This document shows, in pieces, positions 11,892 to 13,216 of a stretch of DNA of 64,000 nucleotides; position 1 is the stretch's first letter, and every line of letters starts with the position of its first letter. Below the pieces are notes generated by a model, which was not told where the DNA came from, did not search any database, and saw only the letters and a program-made list of their open reading frames with translations. Made by a program: the position numbers and the translations under genes. Source of the stretch: Aquificota bacterium (GTDB lineage: Bacteria > Aquificota > Aquificia > Aquificales > Aquificaceae). The DNA is taken from NCBI GenBank assembly GCA_018771605.1, contig CP076324.1, positions 186,001-250,000 of the forward strand, read 5' to 3'.

Positions 11892-13127
11892 TCAAAAGAT
11901 GGTTTGAAGTGCCAAAGTCCAGTCGGTGAAGTTTTTGCCCTTATTAGTACCGCTTTTGTTATATTCTTTCAAAACACCGTTCGGATTCACCACGTCCGTA
12001 CCAAAGCTTACCAATCCGTTCCAGCCCTTGAGATAGTAGTTGAAGAATACGCTGGTCCTGTTCACTTTGCCCTTTAGTCCGTTGATAGTGGGATTTCCAT
12101 AACTAAAGTTCTTATACTCAGAATACTCATACCTTACAGCAAGGGCTGGCTTTCCAAGACCCACCACTTGGTCGTAGAGAAGTTGGCCTTGCACATAGTA
12201 GGCGTTGGTCTTTGGCTTTACATTATTGTACCCAAGCGTAATTGGAAGGCTTGATTGCCCAATATATCCCAACTGAAGGTTTGGCACCATATCGCCGAAC
12301 TTTTGCTCCCACATGGCATCTACAGCCCAAGCCTTAGCCGTGCCAGACTTGCCTGCGTTGTCATCCCACTTCTGAGCCCAGTATGCTACACCTATGTTAA
12401 ACACGTTCTGCTTGCCCAGGTAGCTGTCCGCCTTGCCCCAAGCCTTTTCGGCCTTGTAGCCCAGCATAACGGGGTTAAACTCCAGCCTCATACCGTACGC
12501 TATGTTGTCCTTTTGACCCAGCTTGGTATCTGTATGGTCAAACTTACCGTCAAATATTCCCAGCCTGTATTGAAGCATACCGTCCGCTATGTTACCCCAC
12601 ACAGATATACCAGCATCCCTATCACCAGCAAGGGTTGCTGGAGCAAAGGGATTCCAACCTGGTGTCGTGTATCCTAACTGGCCATTGCTAGAAAATCCCC
12701 ACCTTATACCTGTGGGTATTATGTAGTTCCTGGATGAGGTGAGGTTGCCTCTTGCAAAAGGCACTCTGTACTTACCAGCCCTAACCTTAAACTCATCTGC
12801 AAAATCAAGGGTTATAACACCATCGTTCAAAGATGCGGAGCTTGCTTGATGGGACCCCCTATTGGTAGTGTTTGGAGAAAAGTCGCCTTCAAACTCAAAC
12901 TTAACTATCTTGTTGACCTGTCCAGCCATGTTGATGGTTGCCCTTCTTATGGAGAAGTCTGTGTAGTCCTTTGCATCGCTCCTTGCCTTGCCAAGTCTTT
13001 GGGCGGTTATCCTGAGGGTAAGGTCAAGGGTTGAAAAGGTGTTTTCATCCACCTTAAACATGGCTGCCTCTGCGGGCAACGAGATAGCACCCACCAAAAG
13101 TGCGCTCAAAAGTAGCTTCCTGTTCAT
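11892..13127 (-). CDS. Outer-membrane porin of the phosphate-selective (OprO/OprP) type
   Basis: The ATG at 13127 is preceded by AGGAGGTG and starts a clean signal peptide (MNRKLLLSALLVGAISLPAEA). The mature protein (~390 residues) is rich in alternating beta strands, has FEFEGDFSPN and RAGKYRVPFARGNLTSSR (~115-135) as in OprO/OprP porins, and ends in a C-terminal Phe, the usual outer-membrane assembly signal. Upstream are four CTTAAC repeats at 11-bp spacing (a Pho box), which supports a role in taking up phosphate when it is scarce. The gene is monocistronic, with its own terminator. Confidence 0.88.
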   Translation of the reverse strand: MNRKLLLSALLVGAISLPAEAAMFKVDENTFSTLDLTLRITAQRLGKARSDAKDYTDFSIRRATINMAGQVNKIVKFEFEGDFSPNTTNRGSHQASSASLNDGVITLDFADEFKVRAGKYRVPFARGNLTSSRNYIIPTGIRWGFSSNGQLGYTTPGWNPFAPATLAGDRDAGISVWGNIADGMLQYRLGIFDGKFDHTDTKLGQKDNIAYGMRLEFNPVMLGYKAEKAWGKADSYLGKQNVFNIGVAYWAQKWDDNAGKSGTAKAWAVDAMWEQKFGDMVPNLQLGYIGQSSLPITLGYNNVKPKTNAYYVQGQLLYDQVVGLGKPALAVRYEYSEYKNFSYGNPTINGLKGKVNRTSVFFNYYLKGWNGLVSFGTDVVNPNGVLKEYNKSGTNKGKNFTDWTLALQTIF

Positions 13128-13161
13128 ATCCACACCTCCTTTTGTTTGATTACGCAATAGA

Positions 13162-13216
13162 AGTATAGGGAGTGTTTGTTAAGAATAGGTTAAGGTTTGG
13201 TTAAGAAATTGTTAAG
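13162..13216 (-). promoter_or_regulatory. Pho box and -10 of the porin gene
   Basis: On the coding strand CTTAAC occurs four times at exact 11-base intervals (plus-strand GTTAAG at 13178, 13189, 13200, 13211). After the last repeat come 10 bases and then TATACT (13162-13167). PhoB boxes are tandem repeats of 11-bp units that replace the -35 box about 10 bases before the -10, and CTTAAC is the core described for cyanobacterial Pho boxes. The four units suggest two PhoB dimers. Confidence 0.8.

Follow-up and report, generated by a model that had tools for sequence, protein, structure and literature searches.

A four-unit CTTAAC array ahead of an OprP-like porin gene in Aquificaceae, very probably a Pho box that recurs at phosphate genes

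The window, by which we mean the whole 64-kb stretch of DNA that was analyzed, carries on its minus strand a gene for an outer-membrane porin, and the promoter of this gene contains an array of hexamer repeats. The features of the locus are:

11892..13127, minus strand: Porin_O_P (OprO/OprP-like) outer-membrane porin, 411 aa from the ATG (PF07396, E=7e-12, and structural model)
13133..13139, minus strand: ribosome-binding site GGAGGTG, read directly
13162..13167, minus strand: -10 element TATACT, 10 bp past the last CTTAAC repeat
13178..13216, minus strand: predicted four-unit Pho box with an 11-bp period (from the sequence and from the four-unit arrays kept at the orthologous porins L078 and L079)
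13211-13216, 13200-13205, 13189-13194 and 13178-13183, minus strand: the CTTAAC units, read directly

Read 5' to 3' on the minus strand (window 13162-13216), CTTAAC occurs four times with the linkers AATTT, CAAAC and CTATT between the units, and aaacactccc then leads to TATACT; in compact form this is CTTAACAATTTCTTAACCAAACCTTAACCTATTCTTAAC-aaacactccc-TATACT, followed by the ribosome-binding site and the porin ATG (13127). The initial annotation had described four CTTAAC repeats at 11-bp steps ending ten bases before TATACT, and direct reading of the minus strand finds this exact, as are the coordinates it assigned, which begin precisely at the -10 element and finish where the array does. The porin promoter has no TTGACA -35 element, the place of which is occupied by the CTTAAC box. 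All three overlapping CTTAACN5CTTAAC pairs in the array are perfect, no further match to that pair with at most one mismatch occurs anywhere in the 64-kb window, and no other non-simple hexamer there makes up a four-copy array with a constant period of 8-14 bp. In 60 dinucleotide-preserving shuffles of the window there were no four-unit fixed-period arrays, and two-unit CTTAACN5CTTAAC appeared once in total. The four-unit CTTAAC array is not due to chance.

Searches with the porin used 11892-13130, that is, one residue extra ahead of the methionine. Its AlphaFold2 model is of moderate quality (mean pLDDT 70.8, pTM 0.73), and a fold search with this model returned OprP (2o4v) and OprO (4rjx) as the two best solved matches, while a phmmer search against PDB sequences gave nothing relevant and a search among plasmids was empty. 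OprP and OprO are the phosphate and polyphosphate porins of Pseudomonas aeruginosa. The present porin resembles them in its Pfam family and, as modeled, in its OprP-like barrel, but it is only ~14% identical to them and has a sister paralogue in the same genome with an ordinary -35/-10 promoter. Phosphate is its putative cargo.

The window comes from a Hydrogenobacter-like bacterium of hot springs: the named genomes with the porins closest to this one are Hydrogenobacter MAGs, which assigns the genome to Aquificota. Orthologues in two other Hydrogenobacter species (78% and 73% identity) both keep the four-unit array, with some units decayed and 10 bp to TAGAAT or TAAGAT. The paralogous porin G000:1581402 of the present genome is 55% identical, and the promoters of the paralogous porins consist of a TTGACA-type -35 plus a -10, with no box. 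The boxed porins group in a single clade (support 100/100). In one branch of a duplicated porin a Pho box thus occupies the place that a standard -35 takes in the paralogues, a clean pair in which a sigma-70 -35 promoter serves one porin and a Pho box the other.

When the present genome, a single contig of 1.72 Mb, was scanned for CTTAACN5CTTAAC with at most one mismatch, 21 matches were obtained vs 6 for the reversed pattern. The exact matches collapse to nine places, at eight of which TANNNT lies exactly 10 bp past the last unit (P about 2e-13, given a chance of TANNNT of 0.020 per position). These eight places precede the porin, pstSCAB, phoX, a TonB-receptor/PhoD operon, a DUF2334-glycosyltransferase operon and three operons that are harder to interpret. 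The ninth (1701584) falls inside a kinase gene, has no -10 and was not counted; nor was the one-mismatch site at 1703797, ahead of lplA and likewise lacking a -10, and two further one-mismatch sites (79173 and 1178714) fall within coding frames. We also noted a 726-aa fusion (L044:9889-12069) that joins a lipoate-protein ligase, a CO-dehydrogenase-beta-like part and a weak match to DUF116.

Several of the boxed genes have a recognizable role in phosphate metabolism. One box is followed by a 74-aa ORF, the start of which is signal-like, and then by pstSCAB, of which PstS, PstC and PstB score above their NCBIfam equivalog cut-offs; another precedes a PhoX phosphatase (E=3e-151), and a third an operon for a 274-aa protein, a TonB receptor, ExbB, ExbD, TonB and PhoD. 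The box of phoU has one mismatch (ATTAACCAAATCTTAAC) and stands 10 bp from TAAAAT. The boxed lipid-type operon encodes DUF2334 and two glycosyltransferases. Of the remaining boxes, one stands before the Ras-like/HEAT/EAL-GGDEF operon that immediately precedes pst, one before a 68-aa ORF and one before a 129-aa ORF that is followed by a P-type ATPase gene; for these three no phosphate role is evident. The initial annotation had staked its reading on the pst and pho genes of the same genome, and the motif was found at pstSCAB, phoU (with the one mismatch), phoX and the phoD operon. Its expectations that the geometry would be that of PhoB promoters and that the motif would serve to find the Pho regulon were both borne out: repeats at 11 bp and 10 bp to TANNNT recur at eight of the nine exact sites and at phoU, and the scan reached the pst, phoU, phoX and phoD-operon promoters. 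Its four-unit box stands as exact at the porin but is not the rule, as the majority of boxes here carry two units.

Some details of these loci deserve mention. The phoU box is contained in the 3' end of the ABC-transporter ATPase gene that precedes it (L037:9254-9934), and the pst box in the end of the upstream EAL-GGDEF gene, which belongs to a boxed operon (L041:7822-12289, G000:1196822-1201289) of two unknown proteins, a Ras-like GTPase, a HEAT protein and the EAL-GGDEF protein. The 74-aa protein (L041:12324-12548), which has no Pfam match, is encoded in the interval that separates the box from pstS, a position that it retains in three genera of the family (g1, g3 and g4).

Is the box particular to this genome? 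We searched a phylum sample of 121 genomes with the pattern CTTAAN6CTTAAN11TANNNT and used the reversed pattern as a control. All 13 same-genus genomes in the sample, the present one included, have 3-10 boxes each, and the control gave one match in total among these 13. Elsewhere in the family, genera g2, g3 and g4 have boxes too, with the exception of two of the five g4 genomes, and the other genera are mostly without exact matches; two genomes of g6 have GTTAACN5CTTAAC before pstS. The box stands at orthologous pstS genes and, in several genus-mates, at a second, non-orthologous type of pstS; the pstS genes of G017 and G023 have no exact box even though their genus bears boxes. In relatives the box also precedes phoX, phoU, DUF2334, 68-aa and 129-aa genes, and in single genomes it is found at PhnD (G016) and at a type I phosphodiesterase (G013).

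The core of the box had been described as cyanobacteria-like, and it does agree with the SphR box of Synechocystis PCC 6803, which consists of CTTAACCT (8 bp) with 3-bp linkers in at least three repeats (PMC1906773). The two have in common the core CTTAACC(T/A), the 11-bp period and a position upstream of pst, alkaline phosphatase and related genes. They differ in that two perfect units alone are present at most promoters here whereas SphR is described as binding three or more, and in that the present box has four units at a defined subset of promoters, a fixed 10-bp spacing to the -10 and an Aquificota host. The E. coli Pho box likewise consists of tandem direct repeats with an 11-bp period, 10 bp upstream of a TAN3T/A -10 (PMC1906773, PMC4415409), but its unit is CTGTCAT rather than CTTAAC. 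The arrangement fits a PhoB regulon of Aquificaceae that would combine a cyanobacteria-like Pho box with an E. coli-like placement.

A question that follows is which regulator would read the box. The present genome encodes four OmpR-type regulators, three of which were scanned with NCBIfam models, and only G000:1015195-1015863 had PhoB as its best model, albeit below the equivalog cut-off (232.9 vs 296.2 bits). It is also the only one of all four with the E. coli PhoB recognition helix DRTVDVHI, its own helix (DRTVDVHIKKLREKL) being nearly identical. This PhoB candidate adjoins neither phoR nor pst in the present genome; its best matches in other genera adjoin pstS (e.g., in G109, G061, G028, G083, G035 and G050). 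A match of at least 57% identity is present in every box-bearing g1-g4 genome sampled except G079, the assembly of which is 87% complete. In E. coli PhoB, Arg201 contacts a guanine (PMC3973317), and at that position this genus has Lys, three related genera have Asn and two others have His, substitutions that might, as no more than a suggestion, fit the loss of the G of CTGTCAT. We infer that PhoB (G000:1015195-1015863) is the protein that binds the CTTAAC box.

Other binders have to be weighed against PhoB. The PmrA box of Salmonella and Klebsiella, CTTAAG-N5-XTTAAT, shares the N5 spacing and the CTTAA core (PMC3973317), PmrA is the best NCBIfam model of another regulator (G000:1702826-1703473), and a porin together with lipid-type genes would suit an envelope regulon, so that the array could be imagined to serve an envelope response to metals or pH and not to phosphate. 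We consider this highly unlikely and rejected it on account of the phosphate target genes and the absence of the regulator from box-bearing genomes: the boxed genes are pst, phoU, phoX, phoD and phnD, and six box-bearing genus-mates that are at least 90% complete (G020, G048, G058, G063, G065 and G077) have no orthologue of the PmrA-like protein, the box evidently not requiring one, their best matches to it being other regulators at 40-48% identity. Moreover, its recognition helix (SNSLEVLISRIRKKL) is unlike that of PhoB, and while the spacing fits PmrA half-sites, each of the four units has C, not G or T, as its sixth base.

The two remaining OmpR-type regulators, G000:1064284 and G000:524451, would make the link to phosphate an indirect one. 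Both are widely conserved in the family, and OmpR-family sites frequently show periods of 10-11 bp. Nevertheless, G000:1064284 has no orthologue at E 1e-40 in box-bearing G063 and G016, G000:524451 has none in box-bearing G055 (97% complete), and the recognition helices of both differ from that of PhoB, which makes either a very improbable binder. Least probable of all, to the point of being barely credible, is that the repeats are a product of chance or a structural AT-rich element (e.g., an iteron-like array) with no regulatory role. CTTAAC is indeed short and AT-rich, but the shuffles and the reversed-pattern controls, on which we rejected a chance repeat, were almost without matches, the spacing to the -10 is fixed, and the array is kept in the orthologous promoters of other species.

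The array is thus very probably a docking site for PhoB, since in its own genome and in relatives the genes for the phosphate transporter, phosphatase and related functions are preceded by this motif with an equal spacing to the promoter. What is observed directly is the motif with its geometry, its placement at pst and pho genes across the genome and across genera, and its match to known Pho boxes; to this we add, with high confidence, the reading of the array as a Pho box, in which PhoB would drive a phosphate-starvation promoter for the OprP-like porin and the Pho genes. The porin, which the initial annotation had called phosphate-responsive, would accordingly be induced at low phosphate. 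In the mechanism we propose, the array represents two tandem pairs of PhoB half-sites. When phosphate is scarce, a sensor kinase, probably that of the gene immediately following phoU, would phosphorylate PhoB, and PhoB dimers would then bind head-to-tail along a single helical face of the four CTTAAC units. At the unit nearest the promoter, 10 bp away from the -10, PhoB could stand in for the missing -35 contact and recruit sigma-70 RNA polymerase, and the porin would be made. The same box would drive pstSCAB, phoU, phoX, the TonB-receptor/PhoD operon and the lipid-type glycosyltransferase operon. Such a mechanism is ordinary, but no description of a Pho box or Pho regulon in Aquificota turned up when we searched the literature. 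For this deep-branching phylum of thermophiles, the motif would be a precise regulatory signal of phosphate starvation.

The number of units differs between classes of promoter. With promoters classed by downstream gene, four-unit boxes occur at 5/6 phoX, 8/10 DUF2334, 3/3 porin and 2/3 TonB-receptor operon promoters (18/22 together) vs none of the 39 promoters of pstS, phoU, 129-aa, 68-aa and EAL-operon genes, which have two units. The Fisher P of about 6e-12 for this comparison is descriptive only, because the genomes are related, and hence not independent, and the grouping was chosen after seeing the data. Variation in unit number has a precedent, since repeat number and organization differ among promoters in Streptomyces (PMC4415409, a review). 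We give roughly even chances to the view that the Aquificaceae PhoB regulon has two tiers, with unit number a conserved, promoter-specific setting (two for pst, phoU and small proteins, four for surface and lipid-type functions) and with one branch of the porin duplicates carrying a four-unit Pho box at the place of the -35 of its paralogues. The difference in box number between target classes is conserved, and it may reflect a requirement of surface and lipid-type functions for more active PhoB.

The motif would also tie genes of unknown function to phosphate limitation, among them the EAL/GTPase operon, the two small proteins and, in relatives, arsenate-reductase-like genes. The last are LMWPc genes with a two-unit box (L130:2047-2487, L132, L136 and L141, in G009, G007, G019 and G027, respectively), of which the G009 copy scores 134.9 bits against TIGR02691, below the cut-off; their boxes suggest a phosphate-linked arsenate defense. 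DUF302-type genes are boxed in three genus-mates as well (L131, L133 and L139, in G009, G007 and G019, respectively).
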